Assembly: GCA_009377605.1 (NCBI GenBank)
Contig: WHTT01000005.1
Coordinates: forward strand, 1 to 64,000
DNA from: Luteitalea sp.
GTDB taxonomy: Bacteria; Acidobacteriota; Vicinamibacteria; Vicinamibacterales; Vicinamibacteraceae
DNA length: 64,000 bases
Direction of reading: 5' to 3'
The position numbers and the translations under genes were made by a program. Positions 4,092-37,182 of the stretch are shown piece by piece. The notes beneath the pieces are model-generated. The model was not told the DNA's origin. It did no database searches and saw nothing but the letters and a program-made list of their open reading frames with translations. How positions within the stretch are numbered: the first letter of the stretch is position 1; each line of letters begins with the position of its first letter.

Positions 4092-7000
4092 ATGTCAATC
4101 TATATCCGACGTCTAGCTGTTCTTGCGCTCCTGCTTTGTCCGAGCGTGCTCACGGTGTCACGGGCCGCCGCCCAGAACGTCACGACCGGCGCCGTCAGCG
4201 GCATCGTCGTGGACGAACAGCAGGCCGTGCTGCCAGGAGCCACGGTTGTCGCCGTCCACGAGCCCACCGGCACGACTTACGAGACGGTAACGCTGGAGGA
4301 CGGACAGTTCCAGTTGTTGAACGTGCGCGCAGGCGGCCCCTACCAGGTCACCGTCGCGCTGCCGGGCTTCCGGGATGAACAGCGCACCGGCCTCAACGTC
4401 CCGCTCGGATCCGCGTTGGCGGTGAACGTGACGCTGCAGCTTGCGACGGTCGCCGAGACCGTGGAAGTCACCGCGCAGGCCAGCGAGACCTTCAGCTCTG
4501 CGACGCAGGGCACGGCGTCGAACGTGCCGCAGGCAGCAATCGAGACGCTCCCCACCATTGCGCGGCGTATCGACGACTTCGCACGAACCAATCCCTTCAT
4601 CGTGCAGACGCCGGCCGGCCAGGACGGCTCGGCGCTGTCGGTGGCCGGGCGAAACAACCGCTACAACAGCATCCAGGTCGACGGCGCGGTCAACAACGAC
4701 CTCTTCGGCCTGGCGGCCTCTGGCGTACCGGGTGGGCAGGCTGACGCCCAACCCGTGAGCCTCGACGCCATCCAGGAGCTGCAACTGGTCGTGGCACCCT
4801 ACGACGTCCGGCAGGGCGGCTTCGCTGGTGGCGGGATCAATGCCATCACCAAGAGCGGCGCGAACAACTTCTTCGGGACCGGCTATTACTACGGCCGCAC
4901 GCAGGCGCTCGTCGGGGACGGCATCGACGAGGAACCAGTGTCAGACTTCGAGGATCAGCAGTTCGGCGCCAGCGTCGGCGGGCCCCTCGTCCGCAACCAG
5001 GCGTTCTTCTTTGGCCTCGGCGAGCTCAACCGGCGCAGCACGCCGACCGGGTTCTCGGCCGATGACTGGGCGGCCGTGAGCGATCGTGCGGAAGGTCGCA
5101 GGCAGGACGTCACACGCTTCGTGGACATCCTGCAGAACCAGTACGGGTACGACCCCGGTCCCGTGAGCGAGTTCTCACGCCAGCGCGACAACAACATGAT
5201 CTTCGCGCGCGGCGATCTCAATCTCTCGCCCAATCATCGCCTGACCGTGCGCCACAACTATATCGACCCGATCTCAGACATCGGCTCGATCAGCAATAGC
5301 ACATTCTTGTTCCCGGACAGCTTCTACCAGTTCAACAGCGCGGTGAACTCCACGGTCGGCCAGTTGAACAGCCAGTTCGGCGGCTTCGTGAACGAGCTGC
5401 GCGTGACCTACCAGCGCATCCGCGACCGCCGCGGCGGCTCCGATGATTTCCCTGGTCTCTTTCCTCACCTCTTCGTCAATATCCCCGATGGCACGTTGGA
5501 GGCCGGACGCGAGGAGTTCTCGACGGCCAACGAGCTCGATCAGGACGTGGTCGAGGTGACCAACGATCTCACCTTCGTGCGCGGCCGCCACACCTTCACG
5601 CTCGGGACGCACAACGAGTTCTTCAGCTTCCGGAATCTCTTCATCCGCGACAACTTCGGGACCTACCGCTTCGACAGCCTGGATTTCTTCGAGCAGGGGC
5701 TCGCCCAGCAGTTCGACTACAGCTTCTCCGCCACCTCGGATCCGGAGCAAGCGGCGGAGTTCGCGGTGCGACAGTTTGGCTTCTACGCGGGCGACCAGTG
5801 GCGCCTCGCGCCGCAGTTCACGCTCACCTACGGCCTGCGCGTGGATCTGCCGCGCTTTCCGGACGACCCCGCGCGCAACCCTGTCAGCGAGGAGCTGTTC
5901 GGGTTCCGCTCTGACGTGACGCCGAATGACGTGTTGTGGTCTCCGCGCGTGGGCTTCAACTATGACCTCGGCACGGACACGCGCCAGCAGCTTCGCGGCG
6001 GTCTGGGGCTCTTCGCAGGACGGACGCCGTATGTCTGGTTGAGCAATCAGTACAGCAACACCGGTCTCGAGTTCACGCGATTGAACGTTCCACGCGACGC
6101 CGACAATCGCATCCCGTTCGTCCCCGATCCGAGCGCCCAGCCGACGACCGTTGGCGATGCGGCGACCAACGAGATAGACCTGATCGATCCGGACTACCGG
6201 TTCCCGCAGGTCATTCGAGGCAATCTCGGATACGACCGGGAGGTCGGCGGCGGTCTCATCGCCACGGCGGAGCTCCTCTTCAGCAATAGCCTCAAGGACA
6301 TCGCGTACCAGAACCTGAACCTCGAGCAAATTGGCACGCAGCCGGACGGACGGCCGCTCTTCCAGCGCGCCAACCCGGAGCTGAGTGACGTCATCCTGCT
6401 CACGAATACCGACGAAGGCGAGAACTACAACCTCGCATTCAAGCTAGAGCGGCCGCTTCGCGATGGCTGGTTCGCGAGCGGGTCGTATGCATACGGCTAT
6501 GCGCGGTCGCTCAACGACGGCACGTCGAGCCAGGCGGCGAGCAACTGGGGCAATCTCTACGTGCCGGGGGACCCCAACAACGCTCCGGTCGCCCGATCGA
6601 ACTTCGAGGTGCACCACCGCATCAACTTGAGCGGCTCTTATCGCTTTGACTTGAGGCAGTTGGGCGTAACTGCGTCAGCCTTCTACAATGGGCAAAGTGG
6701 TCGGCCGTACTCGAGCTCGTTCAGTTTTACAGACGTGAACGGTGATGGCCGCAACGCAAACGATCAGCTGTACATTCCGGCCAGCGCCGACGAGGTCGTC
6801 TTCAGCAACGGAACATACGATGACCTGCTCGACTACGTCGCGTTGGCCGAGCTCGAGGACTACATCGGCCAGATCGTCCCGCGCAATGCCTCGTTCACAG
6901 CCTGGACCCACATCGTGGACTTCAGGGTGGCGGTCGATGTCCCACTCGCAGGACGGCGCGGCCTCGAGCTCGCTTTCGATGTGTTCAACTTGGGAAACGT

Positions 7001-7285: not shown

Positions 7286-10200
7286 TTAGAACCCAGGTCG
7301 AATATTAAAGGCAAACTTCCAGCCGACGCCTTCGCGGTCGAGTGGCCGGACGGCGTTGAGCTCGAAGATGGCAAAGCCGAGCGCGTTGAAGCGCAGGCCG
7401 GCCCCCACGCTGCGCACCCAATCGCGTGACCCGTTGGCAAACGCGGGGTCCTCGGTAGACGTCCAGGCCACCCCGGCGTCACCAAAGAGCAAACCTTCGA
7501 TCGGCACTGGGCCGTAGTCGTACTGCCCCTTGAAGATGCCAATCAACGGGAAGCGCAGCTCGGCGTTGAGAACGAGTATGCGTGAGCCGATCAGGCGATC
7601 AAACTCTGGACAACCGCTCTCGTCCGTCGCATTGCACTCGCTGCGGTCAATATCATTCAGGTCGTAACCACGCACGAAACCAGGGTCTGCAAAGTACTGC
7701 GACCCGAGAAACAGCGGGCGCAATCGCGTATCGTCTCCGTCCCCACCATACCGACCGTAGTGCAACCCACGCACGGCGAACGTGATGGGGCGGACCGGAG
7801 CGAAGTAGCGACGGTAGTCGAGGAGCATGCCCGTATAGTTCAGACTGCCGCCCGTTGGGCTGGCCTCAACCCGCCAACGCGAGCCCAGTAAGGGGCTAGT
7901 TGGGCCGAACACTGTTGTGTCGTGAACGAACGCCGCGGAGCCGCTCGCCAAGTGAATGTCGTCCGGCGCCGCCTCCTCGAACTCGCTTCGATCGAGGAGC
8001 TCTCCGAATGGAGAGAACGTGAACCGATCCACTTCCTGGTCGAATGCGATGTTCTCGTAGCCGCCTGAGAACTCGAACCGATCGGATCGGCTGAATGGAT
8101 ACGCCACCAAACCGGCAATCTGGCGGTGTGTCTGGCGTATCGTGACGAAGTCTTCGGTAAAGGTGCCGTCTGGTTGTAGAGTACGTCCCCTGAAGCCGCC
8201 CCATCGATATGGAATCGATCCTCCAATCAAGCCCCAGTTCAACCGGGACGAGCGATTCAGGTAGGCCACCTGACCGCCAATGTCCTCAACTTCGCCGTTG
8301 GCGAGAATGTTGGTGGTCAGAATGTGATTGCCGAGGATGTCGCTGAATTGGAGCGCAACGCCGCCGCTCAGATACGTCCCGAACGAGCTCGCCCCGACGC
8401 CCATCGCTTGGGCTGCATAGTCGAGGCCCAGCTTGGCATCGTAGGGAGCTTCTTCCGGTTTTTGATCTTCCGGGGGCAGGCCGAAGCTCGCGTCGGTGAG
8501 CAGCTTTTCAACCTGCGTGTTCTTGCGCGCCGCGAGCGGCGGGGGGAGCATGGCTGCATCCGGCTGGGACGCGTCGGTCGATATCTCGACCGGCACCTCA
8601 CCAGCGCTCCCATCCAATGTTCGGATTTCGAACCCGCTATCGAATTGCACGCTGTAGGCGAGGCGGTCCGCCTTGGCGGCAACCGACAGTGCCGGGCTGA
8701 GCGCCGTGATACCGGTCACGCCGGTCCTGACGTCGGTCACGCGATGCATGCGGCCGCTCTCGATCTCGAGCCGGTAGACGTTGGTGACACCATCTGGATC
8801 CGCGAGGAAGAAGAGTGACCGACCATCCTGCGCCCACTGCGGGTTGATGTGCTTCCCTTGCGGAAATGCCGCAACCGGCTCGATACGCCTGGTGTCGAGG
8901 TCGAGCCGCGCCAGACGGTATGCGCCAAACTGCAGCGTCTCCAGGTTGCTGGAGAAGCGATCGGTGACGAACACGATGGTCTTGCCGTCTGGCGACCATG
9001 CCGGTTGTATCTCTGCGTACGCATCGTCGGTCAACGCTCGAAGCTCGCCCTTGTCGAGGTCGTACAGGTAGAGATCGGGCAAGCCTCCCTTCAGGGCAGA
9101 GAACGCAATGCGGCGGCCATCCGGGGACCAGGTTGGATGGAAGATCTCACCGAGCTCTTCGAACTCCTCTTCACGCACGCGCTTTCCCTGCTCGACGTCG
9201 TAGATGCTCAGCACGGGGTTTCCACGCCTCACGGCCGCAAAGGCAATGTGGCGGCCGGCGTGATCCCAGGCACCGGCGGAATTGATGAACTGCAAGCTGT
9301 CGAAGTGCGGGTCAGCCGCGGTCTCCACGATCTTGCGCTCGATCTTTCCGGTCTCCGCGTCGGCGAGGAACACGTCGATGGAGAAGAGGTCCTTCTCGGA
9401 AAGGAAGGCTATCTTCTTGCCGTCAGGGCTCAGCGAGGGACCGATGTTCAGTTGGCCGCCGTTCTGCTGCTCGGAGAGCACCAGCCTGCCGCTCTCCTCC
9501 TGCGGCGCCTTGCTCAACACCGGCTGGTACTGCTCGATGATGGCGCCCTTCCAGCTGTCGGAGAGCTCTTTGATGTCCAGTCCGGTGACCTCCATCAAGG
9601 CACCCTCGGCATCCCCCGTTTGCGCCGCGATGCGGAGCGCGTCACCCACGACCGCGTCACCCCAACGGCCAGCCACGTACGCCCACAGCGCCTGGCCCCA
9701 CCGGTACGGAAAGTACCGTGGGTTATTGAGGTCTCGAATGGTCGGGAGGTTGTCTCGCAACGCGGCATCGCGAAGCCACATGGCTGTCTGCGGATCCACC
9801 GGGCCAATGGAGAGATATTCGGCCATGCCCTCGATGAACCACAGGGGGAGGCGGAACAAGCCGCGCCCGCCCATCATGAAGCCGATGTCGTACTGAAAGG
9901 CATGGACGAGCTCATGGCCGAGCACGTGGTCCGTCTCCGCCAGGGGGCCGGCAAACGGCAGGACCACCCGCCGCTTGAGCGCCTCGGTCACGCCACCGGT
10001 GCCCTCCCCAATGCCCCCCTCGATCACGTTGGTCTGCTCGAAATGAGGGTGACTCGCGTAGAGGATGAGCGGTTGGCGGCTGGTCAGCTCGTGGTCCAGG
10101 GTCTTCACGAGCCGCTCGTACCAGCGCTCCGCCATGCGGGCGGCCTCGTCAATCGCTGCCTTTTCCTCTGGGTAGTAGTGAATGTCGAAATGCTGGGTCT

Positions 10201-34373: not shown

Positions 34374-34401
34374 TTGACACCAAAATTTTCTCATCCATAA
34401 T
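34374..34401 (+). promoter_or_regulatory. Promoter of the first AKK microgene
   Basis: Perfect TTGACA at 34374-34379 and CATAAT at 34396-34401 with a 16-base spacer, in a local AT-rich island (34340-34430). A second TTGACA lies at 34350-34355. The expected transcript has a leader of about 85 bases before ATG 34492. Confidence 0.7.
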
Positions 34402-34491
34402 CTACATCTTGTATGACGGCGACAAGCTCAATCCATCTGTAGTGCCGCGTTTGGGCACAAGGGCTGAGCTTGCGCTTTCCAAGGAGGCAGA

Positions 34492-34554
34492 ATGGCCAAG
34501 AAAGCAGCCAAGAAGGCAGCGAAGAAGGCGAAGAAGGCTGCCAAGAAGCGCTAA
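34492..34554 (+). CDS. AKK microprotein 1: 20-residue Lys/Ala-rich peptide
   Basis: Reads M-AKKAAKK-AAKKAKK-AAKKR, so 10 of 20 residues are Lys and the last is Arg. A textbook Shine-Dalgarno AAGGAGG (34481-34487) lies 4 bases before the ATG. A consensus-like promoter lies 90-118 bases upstream and a strong terminator 27 bases downstream, so this is a complete minimal gene. The composition is that of a histone H1 tail or Hc1-like nucleoid peptide; binding to DNA or RNA is an inference. A second, similar gene follows at 34755. No family name is known to me. Confidence 0.75.
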   Translation: MAKKAAKKAAKKAKKAAKKR

Positions 34555-34580: not shown

Positions 34581-34614
34581 AGGGTGTCGCCGCAGTGTGC
34601 GACACCCTTCCTTC
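34581..34614 (+). terminator. Intrinsic terminator after AKK microprotein 1
   Basis: AGGGTGTCGC (34581-34590) pairs perfectly with GCGACACCCT (34599-34608), with an 8-base loop and a TTCCTTC tail. Confidence 0.8.
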
Positions 34615-34754
34615 GCACTAGATGCCCAGCGTGGCATCGCGTATCGGGAGCGCTGATCCATCGGCGGCACACAATGGTCACGGGAGTGACAGCCGCGTGG
34701 GTGGGTCAGGAGCTGCTCTCGTGTTGGACACCCTAGTGAAAGGGGGTACAGGTC

Positions 34755-34808
34755 ATGGCCAAGAAAACGGGCAAGAAAACGGCCAAGAAGGCGGCCAAGA
34801 AGAAGTAG
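34755..34808 (+). CDS. AKK microprotein 2: 17-residue Lys-rich peptide
   Basis: Reads M-AKKTGKK-TAKKAAKKK with 9 Lys of 17. It begins MAKK like microprotein 1 and keeps the same K-K spacing, so the two are probably paralogues. AAAGGGGG (34738-34745) is a plausible ribosome site 9 bases upstream, and a strong terminator follows 23 bases after the stop. No clear separate promoter was found in 34615-34750, so it may depend on read-through past the first terminator or on a non-consensus promoter. Confidence 0.65.
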   Translation: MAKKTGKKTAKKAAKKK

Positions 34809-34831: not shown

Positions 34832-34864
34832 AGGGGGCGGCCGTCGCCCCCTTTCTCTCTCTCT
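34832..34864 (+). terminator. Intrinsic terminator after AKK microprotein 2
   Basis: AGGGGGCG (34832-34839) pairs with CGCCCCCT (34845-34852) around a GCCGT loop, followed by TTTCTCTCTCTCTC. It also ends transcription toward the convergent HEAT/cyclophilin gene. The flank 34880-34912 carries a small gagctct / gagtcct 7-mer run. Confidence 0.85.
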
Positions 34865-34909: not shown

Positions 34910-37129
34910 TCAATTACCGGTCATCGACTCCCCATCCCAAACACGGACGCGCTTGATGACGTCCCATTGCTGTAGCGCGTCGACGATCTCCATGCCATCG
35001 ACGACGTGGCCGAAAACCGTGTAGCGGCCGTCGAGATGCGGCTGAGGGGTGTGCGTCACGAACCACTGGCTGCCTCCAGTGTCCGCCCAGGGGTCGAGCG
35101 CCATGCCGAGCGTGCCGCGGGCGAACGGCCGCGTGCTCAGCTCATCGCGAATCGTATAGCCAGGCCCGCCTTCTCCATCGCCCCGCGGGTCGCCGTCCTG
35201 CACGACGAAGTTGGCAACGACGCGGTGAATACGGGCGTTCTCGAAAAAGCCCTTTTGCGCCAGGCTGATGAAGTTGGCAACCGTCAGCGGTGCGTTGACG
35301 GGATCGAGCTGAACTTGAATGGTGCCGCGGTTCGTTTCGATGTACGCCTGAGGCGAGAACGTGGGTTGCACGAGCTCCGGTGCGTCGTACTCCGCACGTG
35401 GTCGCGTGACCGGTGCCGGGCGTATGCGTGAGACGTCTGCGCTCGGATCGAGCTTCTGCAGCAGCTCGGCGGCCCGGACCCGCACAGCCCAGTCCTTGTC
35501 GCCAAGCGCATCGCCAAGCCATTCGCGCGCCGTGGTGGTGTCCAGCGCGGCCAATGACTCGAGCGCGGCAGCTCGCGCGCCGTATCCAGCGTCCGCCTTG
35601 GCGACGCGGTACGCGGCGACCAGCGCGGGCACCGCCTTCTTCATCGTATGCTCCTGTGCCAGCCTCGCAGCCGCTATCCGGACGCCCATGTCTTGATGTT
35701 CCAGATGGGTGAGAACGAGCTCCTCGAGGTCGGGCGCATCAATCGCGGCGAGCGCACGCAGCACTGCGGGGATGACGCGGGCATCCTCATCTTTCAACAC
35801 CTCGTGGAGCCGGGGTGCCGCCACGTCGGCCGGCAGCGAGCTGAGCGCGGTGGCAAGGGCGGCCCGAACCACCCACTCGCGGTCACGGTCGAGCCCCGAG
35901 AGGATGATGAAGAACTCTTCGGGTCTGATGGCGGCGAGCGCGCGAATCGCGGCGGCGCGCATCGCTGGCCACGGATCCTGGACGAAATCGAGGATCGCGT
36001 CGTAGGCCGGATCGCTCTTCAGTGTCGCGAGCGCCTCGATGACCTCGAGCTGCAACTGATTCTGATTCGCCGCCGGCCGACCGCCACCATCGTCCGGTGC
36101 GCTCGCCGAGCGCGCCGCACTAGGAGCTGCCTCAGGAGCCGTACGGGGCGGCGGCGCCAGTAGCGGCAACAGCGCGTCCACCGCCTTCGGATCCCCGATC
36201 TCTGCGACTGCTCTCACGGCAGCGATCTGGACACCAACCGTCGGGCCCTTCCCTTGCACGAGCGGCAGCAGAACGTCGAGCGCACCAGCCTCCTCGAGCT
36301 CGCCAAGACCTCGCACGGCAAACGCCGCCGTATAGGCGTTTTGGTCACCGGCAAGCGTCAGGAGCGCCGGTAGGGCGCGAGCGTCACCGATACGCTGCAG
36401 CGCGTATGCGACAGGCCACCAGCGCAGCGTCGGCTGTCCTTGCGCATCGAGCACCAGCGCTGCCAGCGACTCATACGCGTCGAGCCGCACGAGCGCGCAC
36501 AGTCCGAGACGCACGGCATCCGCTTCTGCGGGAACCTCCAGCGCATCGTCGGGCGGCACCTGCTCGAGCGCGCCGGCAGCGAGATGGGCGCTCACCATGC
36601 CGCCAATCGCCTCGGCGCTGCTCTGAGCGGCTTCACCGATGAGCCCCAGCGCCTCAGCCGCTCGCCCTTGCACTCGCGCATCCGGATCGGCCAGCGCGCT
36701 GGTCAGCGGTGCTACGCCGTCAGGGACGCCAATGAGGCCCAAGCCGAAAGAAGCGATTGCGCGGACCGCCGGATCCGGATCCTTCAGCGCCGCAGTCAAT
36801 GGCGCCACGCCCTCGGGCTCGCCGATCCGACCGATAGCAAGTGCGGCGCGCCAACGTAAGCGCGCCTCGGAGTGCTGAAGCAAGGCCGGGAGATCCGCGG
36901 GTGCAGTCGGCGGTTCGACACTGTCCTGCGCCTCTGGCGTTCGGCCGGCGCCAGGCTCCTTGGGCGCAGGCGCCGCGGACGCGGGATCTCGAAGCACCCG
37001 CTGATCTTCCAGCCACAAGATCGTGCCCATGTGCTGTTCGATGGTCACCACAGGAGCTGGCGGCGCCGGTGGCGCGCTCGCGCACCCGGCGGCGAGCAAG
37101 GCAACTATCCCCCACGATCTCGCACGCAT
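34910..37129 (-). CDS. HEAT-repeat lipoprotein fused to a cyclophilin-type peptidyl-prolyl isomerase
   Basis: A 739-residue lipoprotein: signal MRARSWGIVALLAAGC (lipobox, Cys16), then about 550 residues of HEAT repeats (LLQHSEARLRWRAALAIGRIGEPEG, PDPAVRAIASFGLGLIG and others). The C-terminal cyclophilin domain spans about 580-739 (IETNRGTIQVQLDPVNAPLTV, FENARIHRVVANFVVQDGDP, WFVTHTPQPHLDGRYTVFG). The combination suggests an envelope-anchored folding helper that docks on client proteins. The active-site Arg of cyclophilin is present in IHRVV. ATG 37127-37129 was preferred to an ATG 11 codons upstream because GAGG precedes it and it gives a compact signal. Convergent with the AKK genes. Confidence 0.85.
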   Translation of the reverse strand: MRARSWGIVALLAAGCASAPPAPPAPVVTIEQHMGTILWLEDQRVLRDPASAAPAPKEPGAGRTPEAQDSVEPPTAPADLPALLQHSEARLRWRAALAIGRIGEPEGVAPLTAALKDPDPAVRAIASFGLGLIGVPDGVAPLTSALADPDARVQGRAAEALGLIGEAAQSSAEAIGGMVSAHLAAGALEQVPPDDALEVPAEADAVRLGLCALVRLDAYESLAALVLDAQGQPTLRWWPVAYALQRIGDARALPALLTLAGDQNAYTAAFAVRGLGELEEAGALDVLLPLVQGKGPTVGVQIAAVRAVAEIGDPKAVDALLPLLAPPPRTAPEAAPSAARSASAPDDGGGRPAANQNQLQLEVIEALATLKSDPAYDAILDFVQDPWPAMRAAAIRALAAIRPEEFFIILSGLDRDREWVVRAALATALSSLPADVAAPRLHEVLKDEDARVIPAVLRALAAIDAPDLEELVLTHLEHQDMGVRIAAARLAQEHTMKKAVPALVAAYRVAKADAGYGARAAALESLAALDTTTAREWLGDALGDKDWAVRVRAAELLQKLDPSADVSRIRPAPVTRPRAEYDAPELVQPTFSPQAYIETNRGTIQVQLDPVNAPLTVANFISLAQKGFFENARIHRVVANFVVQDGDPRGDGEGGPGYTIRDELSTRPFARGTLGMALDPWADTGGSQWFVTHTPQPHLDGRYTVFGHVVDGMEIVDALQQWDVIKRVRVWDGESMTGN

Positions 37130-37182
37130 GTGGAATCCTCGCAGTCGACGCGTCATGGTCACGGCGACAGCATCCTATCAAA

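Follow-up and report, generated by a model that had tools for sequence, protein, structure and literature searches.

A conserved pair of Lys/Ala-rich micro-ORFs in Vicinamibacterales, putative genes for a tail-only, histone-H1-like microprotein

Can a frame of 20 codons, rich in lysine and alanine and far below annotation length, be a real gene, and what would its peptide do? The question arises at positions 34492-34554 of a 64,000-nucleotide stretch of Luteitalea sp. DNA (contig WHTT01000005.1, positions 1 to 64,000), here called the window. An earlier note, made from the letters alone, had proposed a gene at this place, and its frame, ribosome site and promoter are confirmed in the sequence; the perfect AAGGAGG that it described is present at 34481-34487, leaving a gap of 4 nt to the ATG of the frame (ORF1). 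What it overlooked is a second gene of the same kind, ORF2, about 200 nt 3' of ORF1, which lies beyond a 10-bp hairpin and has a ribosome site and a terminator of its own. The features of the locus are as follows.

34374..34379, + strand: -35 element TTGACA, invariant in 45 aligned leaders
34396..34406, + strand: -10 region CATAATCTACA, with CATAAT at 34396-34401 or TAATCT at 34398-34403
34403..34413, + strand: near-palindrome TACATCTTGTA at the expected transcription start, kept in most relatives across the order
34407..34491, + strand: structured 5' leader of ORF1, with P2 arms at 34424-34430 (AAGCTCA) and 34465-34471 (TGAGCTT); P2 pairing with compensatory changes
34481..34487, + strand: Shine-Dalgarno AAGGAGG of ORF1; AGGAGG (AGGAGA in some) kept in the leader alignment
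34492..34554, + strand: ORF1, 20 codons, 20-aa microprotein MAKKAAKKAAKKAKKAAKKR, from its own sequence, relatives and selection
34581..34608, + strand: 10-bp hairpin 3' of ORF1, terminator- or attenuator-like, with a T-poor tail here (-18.8 kcal/mol, z -4.0)
34609..34754, + strand: ORF1-ORF2 spacer and ORF2 leader, foldable
34738..34746, + strand: ORF2 ribosome-site element GAAAGGGGG; GAAGGGGGGGAT in most relatives
34755..34808, + strand: ORF2, 17-aa paralogue MAKKTGKKTAKKAAKKK, from its own sequence and relatives
34832..34852, + strand: ORF2 terminator, AGGGGGCGGCCGTCGCCCCCT and a pyrimidine tail, found by terminator scan and folding
34910..37162, - strand: HEAT-repeat/cyclophilin-type peptidyl-prolyl isomerase gene, convergent syntenic neighbour, read from the sequence

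The order promoter, ORF1, hairpin, ORF2, terminator and convergent HEAT/cyclophilin gene is kept across Vicinamibacterales, and the genome carrying the window (6.79 Mb) shares the locus with a genus-mate (G001). The HEAT-repeat/cyclophilin-type neighbour is no part of the microprotein function.

The promoter lies about 90 nt 5' of ORF1. TTGACA, a 16-nt spacer and CATAAT together match 11 of the 12 consensus bases, and a promoter scan finds one such site against 0.1 expected from shuffles. The TTGACA/CATAAT assignment of the earlier note stands as far as the site is concerned; TAATCT is an equally possible -10, since the first positions of CATAAT vary among relatives while TAATCTACA (34398-34406) is invariant in the 45 aligned leaders. 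The pattern TTGACA-N-TAATCTACA-N-GTRTG is present in 108 of 162 Vicinamibacterales genomes, a single time in each, and never in the reversed control, and a stricter form retrieves 25 of 396 Acidobacteriota genomes, all 25 of them inside the order. The near-palindrome TACATCTTGTA is a possible operator for some regulator.

The frames themselves are conserved as well. A search of relatives for MAKK frames with a ribosome site, as the earlier note had suggested, excludes chance, because the pattern matches 31 of 100 genomes and its reversed control none. ORF1-region DNA matches 61 of the 100, some of these matches being other Lys/Ala-rich genes. A strict short-ORF pattern, which skips long alleles and alleles ending in KKK (the window's own included), is found in 90 of 162 Vicinamibacterales genomes; owing to partial symmetry of the repeats, the reversed control also gives 14 genomes, and the count of 90 therefore leans on the sequences listed. 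The union of the short-ORF and promoter patterns covers about 125 of the 162 genomes, with all 15 families of the order represented, and each of 30 loci retrieved by the promoter alone has at least one micro-ORF at the expected position. Among 85 loci, some from genomes fetched more than once, the neighbour was found in 76 and is convergent in 74; loci without a convergent neighbour either reach a contig edge or lie outside Vicinamibacterales. The genome comparison shows vertical inheritance of the putative cassette through the order, and it shows two short predicted genes that have ribosome sites and hairpins and run the same way downstream of a single, highly conserved promoter.

Single copies are lost in places. 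ORF1 is absent from most loci of one family group (f5), where the promoter stands 128-251 nt 5' of ORF2 and the 16 residues of ORF2 (MAKKAKGGKKKAGKKR) are identical over the ten distinct DNA variants compared. Promoter and ORF2 are kept and ORF1 is gone in G025 and G052, and ORF1 is kept and ORF2 decayed in G003 and G005. Either copy may disappear while the other persists. One genome, G033, has three micro-ORFs in a row, not two (L007, reverse strand 841-1377).

Evidence for coding comes from 113 distinct ORFs, prefiltered on start, end and Lys content, which encode 69 distinct peptides of 14-65 aa (median 18). Differences at the three codon positions number 246, 434 and 1632, mostly in the third position; the 371 close pairs compared, not independent of one another, give a pN/pS of 0.11. 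These comparisons show purifying selection on the micro-ORFs as predicted coding sequence. Stop codons in the 113 ORFs are TAA or TAG, never TGA. Identical peptides are encoded by both copies in 15 of 43 two-copy loci, although the DNA differs at 3-9 sites; when each distinct peptide pair is counted once, 10 of 35 match exactly where 0.47 would be expected, a number reached in 0 of 5000 shuffles, which ignore relatedness. Gene conversion may be part of the source of these identical copies. The persistence of synonymous differences between copies with the same peptide points to selection on the predicted product. The earlier note had expected lack of conservation and frame-breaking changes if it were wrong; the frame and ribosome site are conserved, and its view of a real microprotein gene below annotation length is strongly supported by the conservation of frame, ribosome site and promoter throughout the order, by purifying selection and by the identical twin peptides.

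The composition of the peptides is narrow. After the initiator Met, the filtered set contains K (50%), A (30%), G (7%), R (5%), T (4%), V (2%), P (1%) and S (0.4%), and nothing else. Since acidic, aromatic and Leu/Ile residues are missing from all 69 filtered distinct peptides, folding, membrane insertion and catalysis are unlikely. Charge, between +0.37 and +0.67 per residue and about +0.5 as a rule, is the conserved property of the predicted peptides. Their ends are near-fixed, with MAKK at the start and nearly always KKR at the C-terminus, and Lys is interspersed with Ala/Gly/Thr spacers. Other residues occur outside the filter: G001 has an Asn-containing member, and in G031 (L011:1701-1859) a 52-aa version, which ends in KGCKAC and bears two Cys, unlike all others seen, takes the place of the second copy.

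The RNA around the frames appears to be structured. In the ORF1 leader, P1 (GGTGG/CCACC) and P2 (GCTCAG in the P1 loop, with a downstream CTGAGC) would jointly form an H-type pseudoknot. P2 is paired in 92% over 45 leaders, with compensatory changes, and P1, which is weaker, in 72%; both helices were chosen by eye and then counted, so these counts are biased towards what was seen. The two helices together give 82% paired cells, compared with 78% when shuffled and 27-49% when slid (45 leaders). The covariation score is 0.152 against 0.098 (0 of 500 shuffles), and because the shuffle control leaves relatedness in, the support for covarying helices is good but not conclusive. The leader contains a covarying helix and probably a pseudoknot. 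The leader of the window folds by itself with z -1.9; in its own genus P1 is not evident and an extended P2 hairpin is found instead. A leader fold from RNAalifold only was discarded, as it paired promoter bases with the ribosome site, which is impossible in the transcript.

The strong terminator that the earlier note placed after ORF1 is in part confirmed: the hairpin is strong, and here it lacks a T run and is unlisted in the terminator scan, because TTCCTTCG follows it. In most relatives a long T run comes directly after this hairpin. Further downstream, the ORF1-ORF2 spacer of many relatives (e.g., L046:1634-1759, L076:1160-1290 and L108:3565-3695) has a conserved GTGCCAGGCGGCA core, flanked by GCGAG/CTCGC in several of them; it is a candidate structured RNA with no Rfam match and is not seen in the window's genus. 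The ORF2-leader alignment comprises 19 sequences, two of them (L173 and L190) miscut, and no covariation is claimed for it. Rfam covariance models gave no match in the window region, and 12 loci of relatives gave two matches below the gathering score (E 0.23 and 0.52).

Outside the order, a pattern scan of 84,980 species returned chiefly Acidobacteria. Similar single genes of the MAKKAKKAAKKKKR type, with similar upstream DNA, occur in two FCPU426 MAGs and one Proteobacteria-labelled MAG, and singletons in one Planctomycetaceae MAG and one Streptomyces-labelled MAG. Each of three loci (L090, reverse strand 5519-5566; L100, reverse strand 7605-7649; L114, reverse strand 473-517) has a single MAKK(A/V)KKAAKKKKR-like gene; its ribosome site is of the AAGGAGGT type, and the AT-rich DNA upstream is similar too. 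These FCPU426-type genes apparently form an independent family of the same kind. Six other matches outside Acidobacteriota (L088, L092, L097, L098, L099 and L107) were set aside for want of a Lys-rich micro-ORF.

We propose that the locus is probably a cassette with two copies of a gene for a tail-only, histone-H1-like microprotein, a polycation that binds DNA, RNA or another polyanion. This reading draws on the variation in length, the weak Hc2 matches, the Lys/Ala tails found elsewhere in the order and the reported binding of KPAA peptides to DNA (PMC9239181). The initiator Met, with Ala next to it, would be removed, and the remaining chain would be an unfolded polycation with a charge of about +9 to +12. 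The peptide may be made in quantity, although tight repression of the promoter is also conceivable and abundance is a guess. It would bind polyanions by charge, most likely the DNA phosphate backbone and/or structured RNA, and on DNA it could bring about local compaction and charge neutralization, as do the Lys/Ala/Pro tails of H1, Hc2 and AlgP. Two copies with different leaders would provide redundancy, dosage or two expression regimes. ORF2 is probably expressed in part by read-through past the ORF1 hairpin, since the promoter sits 5' of ORF1, and directly before ORF2 in loci without ORF1. The probable role of the leader helix or pseudoknot is to adjust how stable the mRNA is or how well it is translated, possibly via autoregulation. 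Several features weigh against this reading: the near-fixed MAKK...KKR ends suggest more specificity than charge alone would need, the characterized H1-like bacterial proteins compared are all much longer than the 14-20-aa forms, and the profile matches stay below curated cut-offs, with none for the 20-mer. As a ligand, DNA is not set apart by the genomic data from rRNA, mRNA or polyphosphate. A fuller version, in which a 14-20-residue tail-only protein binds chromatin or RNP, is kept order-wide in two copies that often encode the same peptide behind a highly conserved promoter, and may bind its own pseudoknotted leader, is held only tentatively and we would sooner doubt it than accept it whole.

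The main rival to the H1-like tail is a lineage-specific, unannotated ribosomal protein or ribosome-bound factor, a basic peptide lying in an rRNA pocket. There are precedents in bL37, of 24 aa (PMC5876184), and in the formerly unannotated bS22 of Borrelia, with 61% Lys/Arg (PMC10618245). The window's genome has no match to PF08213 (bS22-like) at E<=1, and bTHX (PF17070) gives no match at the locus and only sub-cut-off matches elsewhere in the genome. Such a role would also accord with the near-fixed MAKK and KKR ends and with vertical conservation across the order. However, length varies from 14 to 65 aa with repeat number, whereas a pocket protein typically keeps one length and one pattern; Arg is much scarcer than Lys, spacers switch freely between Ala-Ala and Gly-Gly, hydrophobic or aromatic anchor residues are missing, and two copies per genome would be unusual. 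We regard the ribosomal role as unlikely, though it deserves serious consideration.

It is less likely again that the ligand is polyphosphate or another storage polyanion and that the peptide organizes granules as AlgP does. The KPAA-rich, H1-like region of AlgP is needed for the spacing of polyphosphate granules (PMC9239181) and its composition is similar, but no co-localized polyphosphate gene was recognized and the N-terminal helical domain of AlgP is missing. Rather improbable, too, is the view that the RNA or the act of translation matters, with the frames serving as leader peptides, attenuators or small RNA. The covarying leader helix, the conserved promoter, the inter-ORF hairpin and the frames rich in Lys codons would fit such a device. 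Yet no gene in the same direction follows, the neighbour being convergent; the frames accept synonymous changes but not replacements; two copies with different DNA encode the same peptide; and the promoter is retained for ORF2 where ORF1 is lost. An antimicrobial peptide or type-I toxin, which would be short, cationic and driven by a strong promoter, is hardly credible given the lack of hydrophobic residues for an amphipathic or transmembrane helix, of a signal peptide and of any recognized antitoxin RNA or immunity gene, together with vertical inheritance, synteny and a BLAST search against phages and plasmids (low-complexity filter on) that gave no match.

If translated, the tail-only microprotein would belong to one of the shortest bacterial protein families known to us with such deep conservation, and as a minimal disordered protein it would count as a new basic cell component in this order. 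It would have escaped notice because it is below annotation length, of low complexity and thus filtered from searches, and so rich in Lys that trypsin destroys it for mass spectrometry. The family would offer a test of whether a function that needs no fold, only charge and length, can be conserved, in a soil order that is abundant yet little studied. The similar FCPU426-type and Planctomycetaceae peptides would then imply more than one origin.

Profile and PDB sequence searches with the ORF1 20-mer gave no Pfam, NCBIfam or PDB family match. The Hc2/H1-like profiles (PF07382, NF038052, NF038053) do not match ORF1, and no allele exceeds a curated cut-off; the 65-aa allele scores 19 bits where the cut-offs are 40 and 135, and the 52-aa allele is likewise far below. 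The peptides nevertheless have an Hc2-like trait, a Lys/Ala-rich composition with variable repeat number and, presumably, disorder. A search of the literature, mostly beyond subscription journals, found no description of this Lys/Ala microprotein family.

The nearest ribosomal counterparts, bL37 and bS22, are of comparable size scale, very basic, lineage-specific and overlooked before structures; they differ in sequence and are pocket-bound helical peptides. bTHX, a basic ribosomal protein of about 26 aa, resembles the microproteins in being small and basic. Elsewhere within the order itself (L149-L154), Lys/Ala-rich tails are found on H1-like proteins about 100-170 aa long, several of which have Pro/Ala-rich acidic starts. 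Two further proteins (L156, reverse strand 818-1261; L160, reverse strand 1065-1301) have at the N-terminus a Lys/Ala tail that closely resembles the microproteins in style, followed by a C-terminal part that we take to be SWIB-like.

The likeness to a histone H1 or Hc1 tail that the earlier note saw has indirect support as far as H1 is concerned, from the spread of alleles at one locus (14-65 aa), the weak Hc2 matches and the DNA binding reported for AlgP peptides; Hc2 and AlgP are the better models, not Hc1. Hc2 (HctB; PF07382, NF038052) is described as DNA-binding, Lys/Ala-rich and variable in repeat number (PMC2848022), the last two being traits shared with the microproteins; these are far shorter than Chlamydia Hc2, given there as 165-237 aa. 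In composition the microproteins are also like the C-terminal KPAA tails of AlgP and PhaF, of the H1-tail type, and isolated KPAA-repeat peptides of AlgP bind DNA in vitro (PMC9239181). In AlgP and PhaF, however, the tail is carried by a larger protein with an N-terminal domain; the AlgP architecture of an N-terminal helical domain and a KPAA tail is absent here, and the microprotein corresponds to the tail alone. A Lys-rich, nucleic-acid-binding tail is thus of a known kind, whereas the predicted stand-alone version of 14-20 aa, duplicated and kept across an order, is apparently new, at least to us.
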